Source: Pseudanabaena mucicola str. Chao 1806 (lineage in GTDB: Bacteria > Cyanobacteriota > Cyanobacteriia > Pseudanabaenales > Pseudanabaenaceae). Taken from it: DNA of 64,000 bases. Position numbers and translations under genes: made by a program. The stretch lies in contig NZ_CP097329.1 in NCBI RefSeq assembly GCF_030323025.1, forward strand, positions 775,001 to 839,000, read 5' to 3'. This document shows positions 35,351 through 59,315 of the stretch, one piece after another. Position 1 is the stretch's first letter. The number at the start of each line of letters is the position of its first letter. The notes below the pieces were generated by a model. It saw only the letters and a list, made by a program, of their open reading frames with translations, did not search any database and was not told the origin of the DNA.

Positions 35351-35362
35351 CTCATGTAATTA

Positions 35363-35462
35363 AGTAGCTAGACATAAGTAAACTAAAAACCGAGAAGTTT
35401 GTTCCGCCCGCTACGCGGGCGGAACAAACTCTGGTTTTAGGTTTTAGTCAAGTTGAGCTACT
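35363..35462. mobile_element. 100-bp TA-inserting miniature element, copy A
   Basis: Ends AGTAGCTAGACATAAG.../...GTTGAGCTACT with the central hairpin GTTTGTTCCGCCCGC-TAC-GCGGGCGGAACAAAC. TA precedes the left end; the right flank has lost TA where another palindrome begins. Same family as copies at 42161, 54322 and 57523. Confidence 0.8.
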
Positions 35463-35505
35463 AAAAACCTGTGGCACACGCTGCGCGTATGTCACAGGTT
35501 TTTAG
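35461..35505. repeat. Palindromic repeat with CTAAAAACCTGTG arms
   Basis: Imperfect hairpin abutting and overlapping the right end of the 100-bp element. Confidence 0.6.
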
Positions 35506-42065: not shown

Positions 42066-42428
42066 AAAGAAATAACAACCGAGCAACGGGTCAGAGCCAA
42101 AGGATTTGCACCAGTCCTAAGTGACAGCGAAGTGATGACAATGGAAATCGTCGCTGCGTAAGTAGCTAGACATAAGTAAACTAAAAACCGAGAAGTTTGT
42201 TCCGCCCGCTACGCGGGCGGAACAAACTCTCGGTTTGGGTTTTAATTAAGTTGAGCTACTTATCAGGGTATTGAGACTGACATAGGGATCTAGAAATATT
42301 TTCGTAAGCATTGGAGAGAATGGTTTCCAGCCTTAAAAAGTCGTACCACCTTTGTCCGACAAGCCGCAAATCTGTGGCAGTACAAAGCGATACTGCAACA
42401 AAATCTAGTTGAACAGTTAGGTGCTTAA
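42066..42428 (+). pseudogene. DDE transposase N-terminal fragment (IS982-like), split by copy B
   Basis: The plus-strand frame reads RVRAKGFAPVLSDSEVMTME then EIVAA, is broken by the 100-bp element, and resumes YQGIETDIGI, an in-frame TAG, then KYFRKHWREWFPALKSRTTF and VRQAANLWQYKAILQQNL before a TAA. Such LSDSEV...FVRQAANLW sequences are the N-terminal regions of a transposase group I associate with IS982; the family name is tentative. The catalytic domain is absent. Removing the element with one TA copy rejoins the frame exactly. Confidence 0.6.
42161..42260. mobile_element. 100-bp TA-inserting miniature element, copy B
   Basis: AGTAGCTAGACATAAG... to ...GTTGAGCTACT, central hairpin GTTTGTTCCGCCCGC. 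Flanked by TA at 42159-42160 and 42261-42262, i.e. a TA target duplication, inside the transposase remnant. Confidence 0.88.
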
Positions 42429-42444: not shown

Positions 42445-42835
42445 TTAAGCAAGACGTTTGAGGAGGATCTGGATCAAGCCGACATAGAAAAAAGCCTCAG
42501 AAGTTTCAGGTAAAAGTCCGTAATCTCTGTTCAAACGGCGAAAGCGAGAAAACCAAGCAAAAGAACGCTCAACCACCCACCGCTTTTGTTGAACAGCAAA
42601 GCCTTTTTGCCCCGCAAGATGGACAACAACAAGTAAACACCAGAAAAAAGTATGCAGAATTGCCAGAATGAAGACCTTACCGTTATCACCACGATCTACC
42701 CAAATTGTTGACAGACGTGGGAATCGGTCACGAATTAGGTTAAATTTTTTCAAAACCAAGGTTGCACCCTTGCGGTCATTAAGATTTGCGGCAGTGACAA
42801 TCACCATCATTAGTAAACCGAGTGTGTGATGATTT
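42445..42835 (-). pseudogene. IS5-family transposase, C-terminal part
   Basis: Minus-strand frame of about 125 codons: LGLLMMVIVTAANLNDRKGA, IWVDRGDNGKVF, KRWVVERSFAWFSRFRRLNR (catalytic Glu motif) and LPETSEAFFYVGLIQILL. These are IS5-type C-terminal motifs. The N-terminal half is missing; the frame loses similarity near 42830. The Tyr/Gly expected after the second Asp is Asp (DRGDNG), another sign of decay. Confidence 0.8.
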
Positions 42836-54257: not shown

Positions 54258-54680
54258 TTGCCCAATGTACGCCTGCTGCAAGAGCATCTCCATAAAGATG
54301 TAATTTTGCAACTTAATGATGAGTAGCTCAACTTAATTAAAACCCAAACCAGAGTTTTGTTCCGCTCGCATAGCGAGCGGAACAAAACTCTCGGTTTTTA
54401 GTTTACTTATGTCTGGCTAATTATTGGCTGCATCCAGTTTGGGGAATTTGTGCAAGCGTCGGGGGCGACATCTCCCTTTTATATTGACCTGTGTACTATT
54501 ATTTCTCATCCTCATGTATTCGAGCAAGTCCACAATGCCTGTACCAATATTCTCCAAACTTTAACCTTTGATCGCATTGTAGGCATTCCCTGAGCACTGT
54601 CAGTAGAGCCACGCAGTGCAACTTCCCAACTATGCGTTGACGACTGTGCCAGTGATGCGTTATCAGGAAAAGGTGTGTCT
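54258..54680 (+). pseudogene. Orotate phosphoribosyltransferase half of the decayed fusion
   Basis: After the TGA, linker codons lead to the 100-bp element (54322-54421). Beyond it the frame reads IGCIQFGEFVQASGATSPFY then IDLCTIISHPHVFEQ and TFDRIVGIP (OPRT N-terminal region), then TGA near 54590. Further on, TVPVMRYQEKVC in another frame corresponds to the PMIYRRKEVK part. Frame changes and stops show it is dead, and it is truncated before the PRPP loop. Confidence 0.75.
54322..54421. mobile_element. 100-bp TA-inserting miniature element, copy C (inverted)
   Basis: AGTAGCTCAACTTAATT... to ...ATGTCTGGCTAAT, central hairpin GTTTTGTTCCGCTCGC. TG (mutated TA) precedes and TA (54422-54423) follows. 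Removal with one TA restores LNDIGCIQFG across the pyrF-pyrE linker. Confidence 0.88.
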
Positions 54681-54694
54681 AACCTTTGGAGAAT

Positions 54695-57439
54695 ATGATG
54701 CTTGTACAGCCTCACTCACGCTCTTATCATGCACTTCCTGAGTATGAAATCATCCAGGGTTTTGACAGCAGTGTAGAAACTGGGTTAACCTCTGAGGATG
54801 TGGCTCATCGCTATGCACAGTATGGCTGGAACGAATTGCAATTTAAGCCGGGAAAACCAGCATGGTTAAGGTTTTTATTGCAATTTCATCAGCCACTCCT
54901 TTATATTTTACTATTGGCTGGAATGGTGAAGGCGTTTCTAGGTTCTTGGACTAATGCAACCGTGATCTGGGGGGTTACACTGATCAATGCCATTATTAGC
55001 TATGTGCAAGAAGCCAAGGCTGAAGGAGCGATCGCCTCCCTTACCAAAGCTGTCGCCACTGAAACCACCGTATTACGAGAAGGACAACCCCTGAGGATTC
55101 CCTCACGAGACCTAGTTCCAGGAGACTTGATTTTGCTGGTATCTGGCGATAAGGTTCCAGCAGATTTACGGTTATTGCGGGTTCGCAACATGCAGGTGGA
55201 TGAATCAGCCCTAACGGGAGAATCCATTCCAGTTGATAAATCGATCCAAGCCTTGCCTGTAGATACACCACTTGCTGAACGTCGCAACATGGCTTATGCG
55301 GGTAGTTTTGTTACTTTTGGTCAAGGACAGGGCATTGTAGTGGCGACTGCCAATGCTACTGAAGTAGGACAGATTTCTCAATCGATGGAAGATCGAGTCA
55401 GTTTGAGCACGCCTTTGACCCGTAAGTTTGAGAAATTCAGCCAAACTTTGCTCTATGTCATTTTAACTCTGGCAACCTTCACCTTTTGGGTTGGGCTGGG
55501 ACAGGGAGAGTCATGGATTAGCATGTTTGAGGCAGCAGTGGCATTGGCAGTTAGTGCTATTCCCGAAGGGTTGCCCGCTGTTGTGACAATTACACTGGCT
55601 ATCGGGGTAAACCGCATGGCAAAACGTAATGCTATCATTCGTAAATTACCAGCGGTAGAAGCTTTGGGTAGTGCCACGGTGATTTGTTCCGACAAAACTG
55701 GGACGCTCACGGAAAACCAGATGACTGTCCAATCGATTTATGCAGGAGGCTACCACTATCATGCGAGTGGTGGTGGGTATAGTCCCAAGGGCAACATTAC
55801 TCCAGTCAATAGCAGAGATCAAAATGCCTTGGTGGTAGAGGAGTTTCCACCTGTTTTAATAGATTGTTTAATAGCAGGGGTTTTGTGCAATGACTCTCAA
55901 CTGAAACAAACAGGATCGGATTGGTTGGTGGTGGGCGATCCGACGGAAGGAGCCTTAATTACTGTAGCTGAAAAGGCAGGGTTGAGCCAAGTGAGGCTGG
56001 CGGCTGTAAAACCAAGATTGGATGCGATTCCGTTTGAGTCAGACTATCAATTCATGGCAACCTTGCATGATGCCGAGCCTCGGATGATTTATGTCAAAGG
56101 GTCGGTGGAAGCATTACTCAGTCGGTGTACCCAGATGCTTGATGCACAGGGACAAATAATCGACCTCGATGCTGCCCAAATTAAACAAGAGGTAGACTCA
56201 ATGGCAGGTCAGGGCTTACGAGTATTGGCGTTTGCCCAAAAAGCTGCAGCAATACATCAGCATGCGATTGACCATGAAGATATTGCAACCGATTTAGTCT
56301 TTCTAGGATTACAGGGCATGATCGATCCGCCTCGACCAGAGGCAATTGCTGCGGTTCATGCCTGTCAGTCAGCGGGTATTCAGGTCAAGATGATTACAGG
56401 TGATCATCTTGCCACAGCCCGAGCGATCGCTCAGCGGATGGGGATTCAAACTGCTGCTGGGGTGGTGGCATTTACAGGGCAACAATTAGCCGAAATGAAT
56501 GCTCAAGACATGAAGCAGGCAACGACGGAAGGTTCAGTCTTTGCTAGGGTTGCTCCATCGCAAAAGCTACAACTAGTCGAGGCACTCCAAGCCAATGGCG
56601 ACATTGTGGCAATGACGGGCGATGGGGTGAATGATGCCCCTGCGCTCAAACAAGCAGATATTGGTATTGCAATGGGCAAGGGTGGTACGGAAGTGGCACG
56701 GGAATCGGCTGCAATGTTGTTGACCGATGATAATTTTGCTTCTATCGAAGCCGCTGTCGAAGAAGGGCGAACTGTTTATCAAAATTTGCGGAAAGCGATC
56801 GCCTTTCTGCTACCTGTCAACGGTGGAGAATCCATGACGATTTTGATCAGTGCTCTGTTGGCACGTGAGTTACCAATTTTATCCCTGCAAGTTCTCTGGC
56901 TGAATATGATCAACTCCATCACAATGACGGTTCCTCTCGCCTTTGAGCCTAAATCTAAGGGAACGATGCAACAGCCTCCCCGCAAACCCAGTGAACCATT
57001 GCTAACCCTCAAACTGCTCCACCGCATTCTGGTGGTGTCGGTCTTCAATTGGATTTTAATTTTCGGGATGTTTGAATGGGCGAAGTCCACGACGGGAGAT
57101 GTTGCAGTGGCGCGGACAATGGCGATTCAAGCCCTAGTTGCAGCTCGAATTATCTACTTACTGAGCATTAGCCAATTGGGTGCAACTATTGCCCAATATG
57201 TTTGTGGGCAAGCCAATGCGATTACCAATGCCCCTATCCTTATAGTAGGAATTGCTACTGCAACAGTTCTACAAATCCTGTTTAGTCAATCGGGTGTGAT
57301 GAATGCCTTATTTGCCACGGCTCCGCTGACTTGGTCTCAATGGCTGATTTGCTTGCTCCCCATGCTGCCTATGCTCCCAACAGTACTTTGGGTTAATCGG
57401 ATTGATCCTTCCAATCCAGTACCACAAGAAAATTATTAG
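54695..57439 (+). CDS. P-type cation-transporting ATPase
   Basis: 914-aa P2-type ATPase. Cation_ATPase_N domain (LTSEDVAHRYAQYGWNEL), actuator loop ALTGESIPVDKS, membrane PEGLPAVVT, phosphorylation site DKTGT (Asp about 333; codon 55691), nucleotide site KGSVEALL, MITGDHLATARAIA and GDGVNDAPALKQADIG are intact. The TM6 region reads WLNMINSITMTVPLAFEP; the Ca-ATPase NxxTDxxP Asp is absent, so Ca2+ specificity is doubtful and Na+/K+ or another cation is possible. ATG 54695 or 54698 follow a GGAG ribosome site; TTG 54686 is less likely. It ends the co-directional redox set. Confidence 0.9.
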   Translation: MMLVQPHSRSYHALPEYEIIQGFDSSVETGLTSEDVAHRYAQYGWNELQFKPGKPAWLRFLLQFHQPLLYILLLAGMVKAFLGSWTNATVIWGVTLINAIISYVQEAKAEGAIASLTKAVATETTVLREGQPLRIPSRDLVPGDLILLVSGDKVPADLRLLRVRNMQVDESALTGESIPVDKSIQALPVDTPLAERRNMAYAGSFVTFGQGQGIVVATANATEVGQISQSMEDRVSLSTPLTRKFEKFSQTLLYVILTLATFTFWVGLGQGESWISMFEAAVALAVSAIPEGLPAVVTITLAIGVNRMAKRNAIIRKLPAVEALGSATVICSDKTGTLTENQMTVQSIYAGGYHYHASGGGYSPKGNITPVNSRDQNALVVEEFPPVLIDCLIAGVLCNDSQLKQTGSDWLVVGDPTEGALITVAEKAGLSQVRLAAVKPRLDAIPFESDYQFMATLHDAEPRMIYVKGSVEALLSRCTQMLDAQGQIIDLDAAQIKQEVDSMAGQGLRVLAFAQKAAAIHQHAIDHEDIATDLVFLGLQGMIDPPRPEAIAAVHACQSAGIQVKMITGDHLATARAIAQRMGIQTAAGVVAFTGQQLAEMNAQDMKQATTEGSVFARVAPSQKLQLVEALQANGDIVAMTGDGVNDAPALKQADIGIAMGKGGTEVARESAAMLLTDDNFASIEAAVEEGRTVYQNLRKAIAFLLPVNGGESMTILISALLARELPILSLQVLWLNMINSITMTVPLAFEPKSKGTMQQPPRKPSEPLLTLKLLHRILVVSVFNWILIFGMFEWAKSTTGDVAVARTMAIQALVAARIIYLLSISQLGATIAQYVCGQANAITNAPILIVGIATATVLQILFSQSGVMNALFATAPLTWSQWLICLLPMLPMLPTVLWVNRIDPSNPVPQENY

Positions 57440-57522
57440 GGGGCAGTAACATAAAGGCTAACTAAAGTTATCAGGTGACGAAATGAATAAACAAAAATGG
57501 TTAACTACACTTAAATCTTTTA

Positions 57523-57780
57523 AGTAGCTCAACTTAATTACTGATGTTACGTGGAAGTTTCTAAGACCCTCACCCCTAGCCCCTCTCCCATTAAGGGAGA
57601 GGGGAACAAGAAATTAGTCTAGCTCCCCCTCTCCCATCAAGGGAGAGGGGGCAGGGGGGTGAGGGTGATATTTGTTCCACGTAACATCAGTTAATTAAAA
57701 CCTAAAACGAGAAGTTTGTTCCGCCCGCTTAGCGGGCGGAACAAACTTCTCGTTTTTTAGTTTACTTATGTCTAGCTACT
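57523..57780. mobile_element. 100-bp TA-inserting miniature element, copy D, carrying a nested element
   Basis: AGTAGCTCAACTTAATT... to ...ATGTCTAGCTACT with TA at 57521-57522 and 57781-57782. Interrupted by the 152-bp element at 57540-57691; without it and its 5-bp duplication it is about 101 bp, like copies A-C. Confidence 0.88.
57540..57691. mobile_element. 152-bp nested element with 16-bp perfect inverted repeats and TAATT duplication
   Basis: Left ACTGATGTTACGTGGA (57540-57555) and right TCCACGTAACATCAGT (57676-57691). Target TAATT at 57535-57539 is repeated at 57692-57696; uninterrupted copies of the host element have it once. The interior holds two CCCTCTCCCAT...GGGAGAGGGG hairpins, a motif of widely scattered cyanobacterial repeats. 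No ORF. Confidence 0.9.
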
Positions 57781-57918
57781 TATATAAGAAAAGTATCGAT
57801 GCAACCTGACCCCTCAGCAAAACACCCTCTCTATCGGCGAGGAATGGTATTGTCGCATCATTGGCTGGTATCAACATCATCTGAGAGATATTCTTGAAGA
57901 GCGTATAGCTTTATGAAG

Positions 57919-57998
57919 GTAGTCATGCAATGTAATTGTGTTGTGGGTGCGAAGCGCCCACAACACAATTACTAAAAAAATTACTTTGCAACACTACC
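57919..57998. repeat. 80-bp palindromic element, family GTAGT...ACTACC, copy 4
   Basis: GGTAGTCATGCAATGTAAT... to ...ATTACTTTGCAACACTACC with the hairpin GTGTTGTGGGTGC. Lies within the debris upstream of sdhB. Confidence 0.75.
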
Positions 57999-58001
57999 AA
58001 A

Positions 58002-58340
58002 CAATCTTAGTATTCACCACAGCAGTCTATGGATTGGTTGCAGCAAAAGAAATCATGCGGGCTCTCCCTGAAAATCTGGTTTACCTACCTCACTCCGAAT
58101 AGGAGTTATTTTCGATCAATCAAGAGCTACTTACTAAAGTATGTAAGCTCTATCCTAACGTCAATGCAGAGGAGGTTTCGCATTCACGCTAGTGGAGACT
58201 TGTGGGGAGAAATGTGTGGATTAGGTGATGGTTATCTGTGGCGATGGAATGGTCAGGAAATGGAGTTAATAGAAGAAGCTTTTGCAGATAATGAGTTAAA
58301 GTTAAACTTAATGCTCAAAGCCCGATCGCCAATATTATCT
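58002..58340. other. Protein-like debris upstream of sdhB
   Basis: The frame from 58002 reads TILVFTTAVYGLVAAKEIMR then ALPENLVYLPHSE before TAG (about 58100), which looks like the end of a former protein I cannot name. A second frame in line with sdhB is open from 58029 but shows no SdhB similarity before 58341. Confidence 0.3.
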
Positions 58341-59315
58341 ATGAATATTACCGTCAAGCTTCACCGCCAAACATCACGTACTACCGAACCGACCTATCAA
58401 ACCTTTGAAATTGAAACCGATCCTAATCGCACTACAGTATTAGACGTATTGATCAGAATTCAAAGTGAACAGGATGGCTCCGTTGGTTTTCGGCGAAACT
58501 GTCGCAATGCAATCTGTGGTTCCTGTGCAATGAGAATTAATGGACGTTCGGGCTTAGCTTGTCAAAAACATATAAGTGAAGTGATGGGCGAACATGATAC
58601 AGAATTAGTAATCGAACCGATGAAAAATCTGCCTGTGATTAAGGACTTAATTGTAGACATGACTAAATTTTGGGATAACATCCATAAAGTTGATCCCTAT
58701 GTTTCCACCGCATCACGACAAATTAGCAAAACTGAGTATCTACAAACCCCTGCTCAACGCGCTAAGCTCCAAGCTGCCGCTAACTGTATTCTCTGTGGTT
58801 CCTGCTATTCCGAATGTAACTCCGCAGCAGTTAGCGATCGCTTTGTTGGCCCCCATGCCCTAGCTAAGGCATATCGCGTCATGGCAGATAATCGTGATGA
58901 TCGCACTGAAGAACGAGTCAAAAAATATAATGATTCGGGTTTTGTTTGGGACTGCACTCGCTGCTACAACTGCAATGAAGTTTGTCCAGTAGAAGTCCAA
59001 CCACTAGATCGGATTTCCCAAATCAAGCATGAAATTCTCGCTAATCGCGATTTGCCAGAATCCATGCCACAACGTCATCGTCATACTCTGCTTGATTTAG
59101 TTAAAGAAGATGGCTGGATCGATGAAAGTAAATTTGCAGTACGACTGATCAGCGATGATTTCAAAGATTTAACAGCATTGCTAAGTATTTTCCCTGTTGG
59201 TATTCGGATGGTGCTAAGCGGCAAAATTCCCTATCCTTGGCAATTTAAAAAGTCAGAAGGTGCATCCGAAGCCAAAGCTTTAATAGAGGCAATTACTGGG
59301 AGCATCTCAGTTTGA
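58341..59315 (+). CDS. sdhB: Succinate dehydrogenase/fumarate reductase iron-sulfur subunit
   Basis: Electron-transfer subunit of respiratory complex II, peripheral on the thylakoid or plasma membrane. 324 aa. 2Fe-2S site CRNAICGSCAMRINGRSGLAC, then CILCGSCYSEC and CTRCYNCNEVCP for the 4Fe-4S and 3Fe-4S clusters, all intact. ATG 58341 starts exactly at the family N-terminus (MNITVKLHRQ); the frame open to 58029 is debris. The last codons and stop (GSISV, TGA) lie in the left end of the ISKra4-like remnant, so the native C-terminus is slightly altered. No flavoprotein subunit is adjacent, usual for cyanobacteria. Confidence 0.93.
   Translation: MNITVKLHRQTSRTTEPTYQTFEIETDPNRTTVLDVLIRIQSEQDGSVGFRRNCRNAICGSCAMRINGRSGLACQKHISEVMGEHDTELVIEPMKNLPVIKDLIVDMTKFWDNIHKVDPYVSTASRQISKTEYLQTPAQRAKLQAAANCILCGSCYSECNSAAVSDRFVGPHALAKAYRVMADNRDDRTEERVKKYNDSGFVWDCTRCYNCNEVCPVEVQPLDRISQIKHEILANRDLPESMPQRHRHTLLDLVKEDGWIDESKFAVRLISDDFKDLTALLSIFPVGIRMVLSGKIPYPWQFKKSEGASEAKALIEAITGSISV

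Follow-up and report, generated by a model that had tools for sequence, protein, structure and literature searches.

The window analyzed here is a stretch of 64,000 bp, positions 775001-839000 of the single 4.53-Mb contig of Pseudanabaena mucicola str. Chao 1806. In the interval that separates a 917-codon reading frame (54686-57439) from another frame at 58029-59315, it contains one repeat nested within another (Table 1). The outer repeat, referred to below as the host, is palindromic, and the inner one is a short insert with inverted ends, a miniature inverted-repeat transposable element (MITE), whose interior consists of two hairpins in opposite orientation. Three further host copies in the window are unbroken and carry the target site of the insert once, as the original prediction described; in one of them it has a changed form. 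Genomes and loci used for comparison are denoted by G and L numbers.

Table 1. Coordinates of the nested repeats, their parts and related features. Positions refer to the window unless marked as genome positions.
Feature	Position	Strand	Remarks
Host repeat, 104-bp TA-type palindrome, split by the MITE	57521-57782	.	ends TAAGTAGCTNNACNTAA on both sides
Host repeat, unbroken copy	35361-35464	.	target site once, CTTGACTAAAACC; changed to TTGACTA
Host repeat, unbroken copy	42159-42262	.	target site once, CTTAATTAAAACC
Host repeat, unbroken copy	54320-54423	.	target site once, CTTAATTAAAACC
Left target-site duplication, TTAATTA, 7 bp	57534-57540	.	includes TAATT
MITE core, 150 bp	57541-57690	+	30 full-length copies, 95-100% identity; length 149-152 bp
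Left terminal inverted repeat, CTGATGTTACGTGGAA	57541-57556	+	identical to ends of intact insertion sequences in relatives
First triplex motif, CCCTCACCCC-TAG-CCCCTCTCCC-loop-GGGAGAGGGG	57567-57604	+	fits the published motif on the other strand
Second triplex motif	57626-57665	-	inverted relative to the first
Right terminal inverted repeat	57675-57690	-	identical to ends of intact insertion sequences in relatives
Right target-site duplication, TTAATTA, 7 bp	57691-57697	.	
One-hairpin MITE versions, 103-104 bp between ends	genome 2424903-2425008; 1844291-1844396; 4267467-4267572; 3990297-3990402; 3115771-3115875		the copy at 4267467 sits within a host repeat
Decayed transposase copies	genome 1385162-1385404; 1757779-1758021; 3758541-3758783; 398859-399101		

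The host is an abundant repeat that starts and ends in TA. Its end pattern has 353 matches in the genome with at most two mismatches, as against one match for the control, and halving this count gives an estimate of about 175 copies. Paired ends were present in 28 of 30 loci that were read, at a spacing of 103-106 bp in 27 of these. Two other features of the window may be mentioned at this point, namely a remnant of a DDE transposase at 42520-42825 (genome 817520-817825), close to the intact host repeat at 42159-42262, and a second short palindromic repeat (GTAATTGTGTTGTGGGTGC) at 57932-57972, another copy of which contains MITE copy L003.

The MITE, its copies and its target sites

The insert was originally described as a 152-bp sequence at 57540-57691 with perfect 16-bp inverted ends, bordered by a duplicated TAATT. 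Inverted ends are indeed present, as perfect arms of 17 nt at 57540-57556 and 57675-57691, and the inverted-end pattern occurs twice in the window with at most three mismatches when 0.10 occurrences are expected by chance. A DNA search of the genome recovered 30 copies of the insert that are full length or lack a single base, at 95-100% identity, together with fragments, and the 17-nt end (at most two mismatches) was found 43 times in forward and 48 times in reverse orientation, the controls giving 1 and 0. The core between the 16-bp ends is exactly 150 bp long in 23 of the 30 copies, and at this size, its perfect 16-bp ends included, the MITE is too short to encode a transposase.

Similarity that continues past the ends, which the original prediction had named as evidence against a discrete element, was looked for in all 30 copies and was not seen. 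Pairs of copies are on average 94% identical in the first 60 bases inward from the ends, 42-44% identical in the 10 bases adjoining the core, and 28% identical farther out, in bases 11-40. This fall from 94% to 28% indicates that, the A+T-rich target apart, similarity stops at the ends. Direct repeats of 6-8 bp abut CTGAT...ATCAG exactly in 23 of the 30 copies (7 bp in 16, 6 bp in five and 8 bp in two), and the remaining seven have no 6-8 bp repeat; deliberate mispairing of left and right flanks produced such a repeat 17 times in 870 combinations. A and T predominate in the 16 targets of seven bases, where positions 1 and 5 are each T in 13 and position 7 is A in 15.

These repeats also bear on where the element ends. 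In six copies the base beside the core deviates from the usual A on the left or T on the right; in four of them the odd base falls inside a 7-bp repeat, and the other two (L011 and L029) lack any repeat. Because odd bases are thus part of the duplication in four of six deviating copies, we assign the outer A and T to the target, and the most likely arrangement is a 150-bp core with 16-bp ends and a 7-bp duplication. TAATT does flank the insert on both sides (57535-57539 and 57692-57696), as predicted, but as part of a longer duplication, TTAATTA, and the length of 152 bp gives way to the 150 bp listed in Table 1.

Besides the full-length copies there are one-hairpin versions (Table 1), shorter by about 46 bp. 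This loss equals the spacing of the two hairpins and suggests that they arose by deletion between the hairpins. A sequence with 609 bp between its ends (L073, 1337-1945) was set aside, as it is a MITE copy split by another repeat with inverted ends GGGTGGATTCATTTTCGGAAAGG.

The window copy, L006 and L016 are the three full-length copies, out of 30, that interrupt a 104-bp host repeat, while L003 lies in the other palindromic repeat mentioned above and L027 has a host end no more than 60 bp away. A one-hairpin copy of 104 bp (L076, 1469-1572) has the flanks CAACTTAATTA and TTAATTAAAAC and occupies the same host site. L006 likewise uses the host site of the window copy; there the MITE is turned the other way round and is flanked by an 8-bp duplication. 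The two are most simply explained as independent insertions, although later inversion of the MITE, end for end, could also account for the opposite orientation. In each case the MITE postdates the host copy that it interrupts, so the order of events originally proposed from the nesting, host first and insert later, holds.

The two junctions of the window insertion were also found in a second strain of this species, where they lie on two contigs that break off within the MITE or at its margin. This strain gave 89 end matches, and of 19 MITE sites that were compared 18 match the window genome at 98.7-99.8% identity; the remaining one (L540) has no counterpart among the window-genome loci compared. 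Since the window junctions and 18 of 19 sites are common to both strains, the window insertion predates their split, and no recent movement was seen directly among the sites compared. A clean empty site was sought in the relative G023, where the upstream gene is conserved and homology ends near the end of the gene, which amounts to absence of the insertion with no clean junction.

A candidate partner insertion sequence

The original prediction called for a transposase gene between ends matching those of the insert. In the window genome, solitary copies of the end led to four decayed DDE transposase copies (Table 1), whose frames end in the same inverted repeat and of which the longest has 169 open codons; only decayed copies, and no intact transposase with these ends, were found in this genome. 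A locus that combines an end with a 304-aa frame matching a transposase model (L078) was discarded as autonomous partner, as here a transposase gene flanked by different inverted ends has split a MITE.

A transposase search of named genomes returned 80 loci, and the ends were checked in 23, of which 22 are titled Pseudanabaena or uncultured cyanobacterium and one is a metagenome-assembled genome (MAG) titled Oscillatoriales. Here the sought transposase was found, intact and between identical 16-bp ends, in other Pseudanabaena. Six of the 23 loci carry a complete element with both ends and an open frame of 364-365 codons: those of P. biceps PCC 7429 and of strain SR411 (1134 bp each), strain lw0831 (1130 bp), the Oscillatoriales MAG (1131 bp) and two copies on a plasmid of P. 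biceps O153 (1121 bp). The other loci comprise a 907-bp copy with degraded ends, a 581-bp copy, and sequences with one end, no end or unpaired ends, several of them cut by the end of a contig. Eleven of the 12 ends of the six intact elements are identical to the 16 bp of the MITE, and a target duplication is visible in four of the six (TAATGA, TTAGTTA, TAATTCA and ATATTAA), with none seen in the other two. The last two codons and the stop of the transposase frame (TCC ACG TAA) lie inside the inverted repeat. Beyond the 16-bp ends, at most a base or two are common to the MITE and the partner element.

In terms of protein family, the transposase passes the cut-off of 250 bits for the NCBIfam model IS701_2 (353 and 349 bits) and exceeds the cut-offs for Pfam DDE_5, DDE_Tnp_1 and DDE_Tnp_2. 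The Y-(2)-R-(3)-E-(6)-K signature is complete, with Y283, R286, E290 and K297 invariant in all five aligned transposases. A sequence search for a solved structural relative gave none at E 0.01. Relatives that are 48-53% identical are encoded on plasmids of Acinetobacter schindleri, Stanieria and Cyanobacterium, that of Cyanobacterium sp. HL-69 being annotated as 'group ISAba11 transposase'; all three have the ends CTGATGTTACG, and one of them, from Acinetobacter schindleri, is flanked by the 7-bp duplication TTATTTA. ISAba11-like insertion sequences (NCBIfam NF049921, 'IS701 family transposase') resemble the partner in their transposase, their ends and, in one relative, their duplication; PMC7760358 reports an ISAba11 of 1101 bp. 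The MITE differs from ISAba11-like elements in having no transposase and in sharing with them essentially only the 16-bp ends.

Other groups fit less well. In the part of De Palmenaer 2008 (PMC2266710) that defines these groups, the IS4 family duplicates about 10 bp, with 8-13 bp in most subgroups; the partner agrees with it in YREK but differs in its duplication, which is 6-7 bp in four of six elements, and only the ISPepr1 subgroup comes near. The same account gives the IS701 family a 4-bp duplication and an incomplete YREK. IS701 proper, in the sense of 2008, is therefore ruled out, as the partner duplicates 6-7 bp in four of six elements and its YREK is complete. ISPepr1 elements, according to that source, have a length of 1500-1600 bp, ends in 5'-CT, A+T-rich duplications of 7-8 bp and a complete YREK. 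They resemble the partner in the first two end bases, the duplication and YREK but differ in the end consensus and in length, and at 1121-1134 bp the partner is excluded from this subgroup as described there. Judged by its sequence, the candidate partner is an ISAba11-like insertion sequence of 1.12-1.13 kb.

Some further relatives deserve mention. L074 (1533-2113) is a 581-bp deletion derivative of the partner that retains the end of the transposase and contains a AGGACTTACGCA-type palindrome. In G003, a genome of the same genus, at least nine places, several at contig ends, match only the last 34 residues of the transposase, and these short matches may stem from a second derivative of the partner, one with an internal deletion. 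Transposase relatives were also found in MAGs labelled Aenigmatarchaeota or Nanohalarchaeota (L160-L162, L171 and L199), with best segments 55-65% identical, which may reflect transfer or binning error.

The triplex motif inside and outside the MITE

The interior of the MITE corresponds to a motif known from the literature. The intrastrand triplex motif (TM) of Holder et al. 2015 has the plan CCCTCTCCC-loop-GGGAGAGGG-nnn-GGGTGAGGG in the table of motifs in that paper (PMC4666352), and by eye each MITE hairpin fits this plan on one strand, as CCCTCTCCC-loop-GGGAGAGGG-TTA-GGGTGAGGGG. By the same comparison with the tabulated motif, the hairpin is accompanied by the third, G-rich strand (GGGTGAGGG). 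The interior is thus, by its sequence pattern, an inverted pair of TM. As described in the parts of that paper used here, TM is present in high numbers in cyanobacteria and in inverted pairs in E. coli, where it was not found associated with transposons, phages or plasmids. Plan and inverted pairing are the same in our case; what differs from the motif as described there is that TM here makes up the inner part of MITEs, which have inverted ends and target duplications.

Folded with DNA parameters, the 152-nt strand reaches -54.5, as against -20.6 (sd 3.0) for 100 shuffled sequences (z = -11.2). Stem variants were counted in 117 TM units from 13 genomes, among the listed variants only. The two sides of the stem partly vary in step, as TTCTCCC stands opposite GGGAGAA in 19 of 19 matched hairpins, and TCTCC(C) or TCGCCC opposite GGGAGAA in two of 123. 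Counting against simple covariation, 29 first hairpins have GGCGA opposite TCTCCC and seven hairpins have TCGCCC opposite GGGAGA, with one broken pair in either case. On balance, these counts suggest that the TM fold may be under constraint. REP and REPIN repeats, which are RAYT-borne, are tagged with GTAG or CGTC on one side of their palindrome according to the title of PMC3733652; by eye, the unit described here starts with CCCTCA, ends with TGAGGG and has neither tag.

The hairpin pattern occurs at 64 places in the window genome. Of the 50 matches listed, a hand count assigns 45 to copies or fragments of the MITE and five to other sequence. Six places with TM outside the MITE were read; four hold pairs (L245, L246, L248 and L250) and two hold one complete hairpin (L247 and L249). 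The best match to the 16-bp end in these loci, each of 1.0-2.2 kb, has 4-7 mismatches, and in L246 about 8 nt outside TM are common to the MITE.

Across the class, the TM half (at most two mismatches) was found in 163 of 291 genomes and in 80 of 130 genera, lineages being counted by family and genus labels; the reversed-pattern control mostly gave 0, with exceptions such as G039 (91 and 95). The search for the 16-bp end among cyanobacteria that had been proposed earlier did return matches (at most one mismatch) in 31 of 291 genomes and seven of 130 genera, but these carriers are mostly Pseudanabaena and the ends are not widespread. They consist of all 25 sampled Pseudanabaena, G028 (another genus of the same family, 12 matches) and five genomes, from five genera, with one or two isolated matches; a separate search of the genus found the end in 26 of 26 genomes. 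TM-rich genomes without any such end include G041 (385 TM matches), G090 (157) and G260 (125).

The original prediction suggested that the insert might explain how the GGGAGAGGG hairpins of cyanobacteria spread. Because TM is present in 163 of 291 genomes and the ends in 31, and because bare TM units occur in the very same genome, this MITE was not what carried TM through the cyanobacteria; the simplest account is that it took TM up. The suggestion thus fails for this element on both the distribution among genera and the bare units. A broader form of it survives in that the same unit lies inside other inverted-ended repeats of other genera, which we describe in the following.

We took 120 stretches around listed TM places from 13 TM-rich genomes of 12 other genera, a non-random sample, and kept 117 units after dropping duplicates and units with fewer than 60 bases before or 100 after the motif. 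Families of at least three units with a common 24-bp left flank, which is no longer common 96-120 bp away, were found in eight of the 13 genomes. They include 48 of the 117 units (62 counting pairs), and a common left flank between genomes was seen in 19 of 6208 pairs. Inverted matches between the flanks (score of at least 12) occur in 19 of 117 units, whereas cross-genome controls gave 14 in 1170; at L471, two of these 19 are due to neighboring TM units that match each other.

Side-by-side reading, by which the ends were judged unrelated, distinguishes seven further families, or shells, with other inverted ends, and duplications of 7-9 bp are seen in four of them. The shell of G042 has the ends GGCATTAATATACT and a length of 160-161 bp, with an 8-bp duplication in eight of 10 units. 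That common to G127 and G267 (GGCGTTGCTGAAT) measures 110-148 bp where both ends were found and has 8-bp duplications in four of nine. In G053 (GGTAGTCGCCTGAG) the length is 148-149 bp in four of five units, one of the five having an 8-bp and one a 7-bp duplication, and in G057 (GTTGACTGACAAAA) it is 147-149 bp where both ends were found, with 9-bp duplications, CACTTCAAG and CAGTGTATT, recognized by eye in two of four. No clear duplication was found for the remaining shells, namely that of G041 (one end TATAGTC, the opposite one mostly TATGGTC, 107-108 bp, TA-type by its ends only), that of G098 (AGGACTGACGCA, 133-147 bp where both ends were found) and that of G285 and G269 (CTAAACC, 158-180 bp where both ends were found), for which a single 5-bp repeat was seen in G285. 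G039, with two units, has no shell family. In G260 all 14 units lack a common left flank and are bare TM pairs, and no MITE found in this analysis accounts for the 125 matches in that genome. Counting Pseudanabaena, TM thus resides in up to eight inverted-ended families with different ends, with duplications seen in five, and it is also found on its own. The simplest account would be repeated capture of a pre-existing TM between ends recognized by a transposase, followed by expansion of each family.

Origin and movement of the MITE

Taken together, the insert is very probably a non-autonomous MITE that is moved in trans by an ISAba11-like transposase, with captured TM as its interior, other shells having captured TM too. 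This reading draws on what can be read in the sequences themselves: ends, copies, duplications, a matching intact insertion sequence in relatives, bare TM and other shells. The ISAba11-like element of 1.12-1.13 kb, with its DDE transposase and Y-R-E-K signature, would supply the enzyme in trans, which would recognize the 16-bp ends and move the MITE by a cutting mechanism that we infer. The MITE would then be joined to an A+T-rich site, usually with duplication of 7 bp and a preference for T....A; in the window it would have jumped into TTAATTA near one end of the older 104-bp TA-type repeat. The interior would not derive from the insertion sequence, as it is an inverted TM pair that also stands alone and may have been captured between two ends; the direction of capture is what we infer from the distribution. 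In other genera the same unit would have been captured by repeat families with other ends. Some findings count against this reading, namely the lack of an intact transposase with these ends among the hits in the window genome, the absence of recent movement among the sites compared, the restriction of similarity between MITE and partner to the ends and at most a base or two, the seven of 30 MITE copies and two of six intact elements without a duplication, and the three shells for which no clear one was found.

Several other readings have to be weighed against this one. The 5-bp duplication of the original description would imply a 152-bp element with the ends ACTGAT...ATCAGT. TAATT on both sides in the window agrees with this, as do 5-bp matches at that boundary in 15 of 29 copies evaluated, but the repeat usually runs on to 7 bp, taking in the A and T that would then be terminal, and the odd base is part of it in four of the six deviating copies, the other two having no repeat. 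Moreover, the intact insertion sequences duplicate 6-7 bp in four of six cases, and TTATTTA flanks one of the three plasmid relatives, that of Acinetobacter schindleri, which leaves the 5-bp reading improbable. That the nesting arose by chance recombination or assembly error, with no transposition involved, is harder still to believe. Repeats are prone to misassembly, and in the second strain the junctions lie on separate contigs that end in or at the edge of the MITE. Both junctions are nevertheless present there, and two more full-length copies and a one-hairpin copy sit in host repeats, one of them in opposite orientation and with an 8-bp duplication, so that we consider error an extremely improbable explanation.

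The origin of TM itself allows for more than one account. If the MITE were the source of the hairpin, bare TM in cyanobacteria would be MITE copies minus their ends, and the predominance of MITE copies and fragments among the hairpins of the window genome (45 of the 50 matches listed, out of 64) fits this. The distribution speaks strongly against it, with TM in 80 of 130 genera and the 16-bp ends in seven, five of which have one or two isolated matches, with TM-rich genomes (385, 157 and 125 matches) that lack such an end, and with other ends around the same unit in other genera; we regard it as very unlikely. In principle, bare pairs might be old MITEs whose ends have eroded, and one of them, L246, has about 8 nt in common with the MITE outside TM. 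A more substantial alternative, which we consider possible but less likely than not, is that TM is itself mobile in the manner of REPINs, with an enzyme of its own, and enters a MITE as it would any other sequence, so that the shells would be incidental targets. The existence of bare pairs, including the 14 of 14 units of G260 without a common left flank, and the frequent start of the pair with CCCTCA and end with TGAGGG are consistent with such mobility. Against it stands the constant position of TM within a shell family, which implies that each capture preceded the expansion of the family, although capture by insertion of TM is still compatible with this pattern.

Under capture of TM by MITEs, the reading that we prefer, TM may be regarded as modular cargo taken up independently, in different lineages of cyanobacteria, by up to eight MITE families (five with duplications of 7, 8 or 9 bp, one more with TA-type ends), and hitch-hiking on MITEs could be a main route of its spread. 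The foldback may in turn help the MITE by bringing the ends together, by insulating transcription or through template switching that makes new MITEs. We give this wider proposal about an even chance of being correct.

The recurrence of TM as cargo of different MITEs is the novel part of these observations. Our literature search returned no paper that joins the intrastrand triplex motif with miniature inverted-repeat transposable elements. Among the matches listed, PMC4666352 is the only publication on TM, the search having covered titles and the beginnings of abstracts; two cyanobacterial papers that name the intrastrand triplex do so as a reference to Holder et al., with no mention of MITEs in the portions of text retrieved. 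The presence of TM inside several different MITEs offers a concrete route for its spread and raises the question of whether its structure helps small transposons to form or move. In addition, a cyanobacterial MITE is paired here with a candidate insertion sequence, and the length of its target duplication is corrected. In the sections of PMC3542288 devoted to them, the MITEs of Anabaena sp. 90 are short, multi-copy, mostly intergenic elements with inverted ends, called type II as their ends have no evident similarity to insertion sequences in that genome. Compared by description, some of them may contain TM; they are alike in build to the MITE of the window but differ from it in that for the latter a partner has been found.
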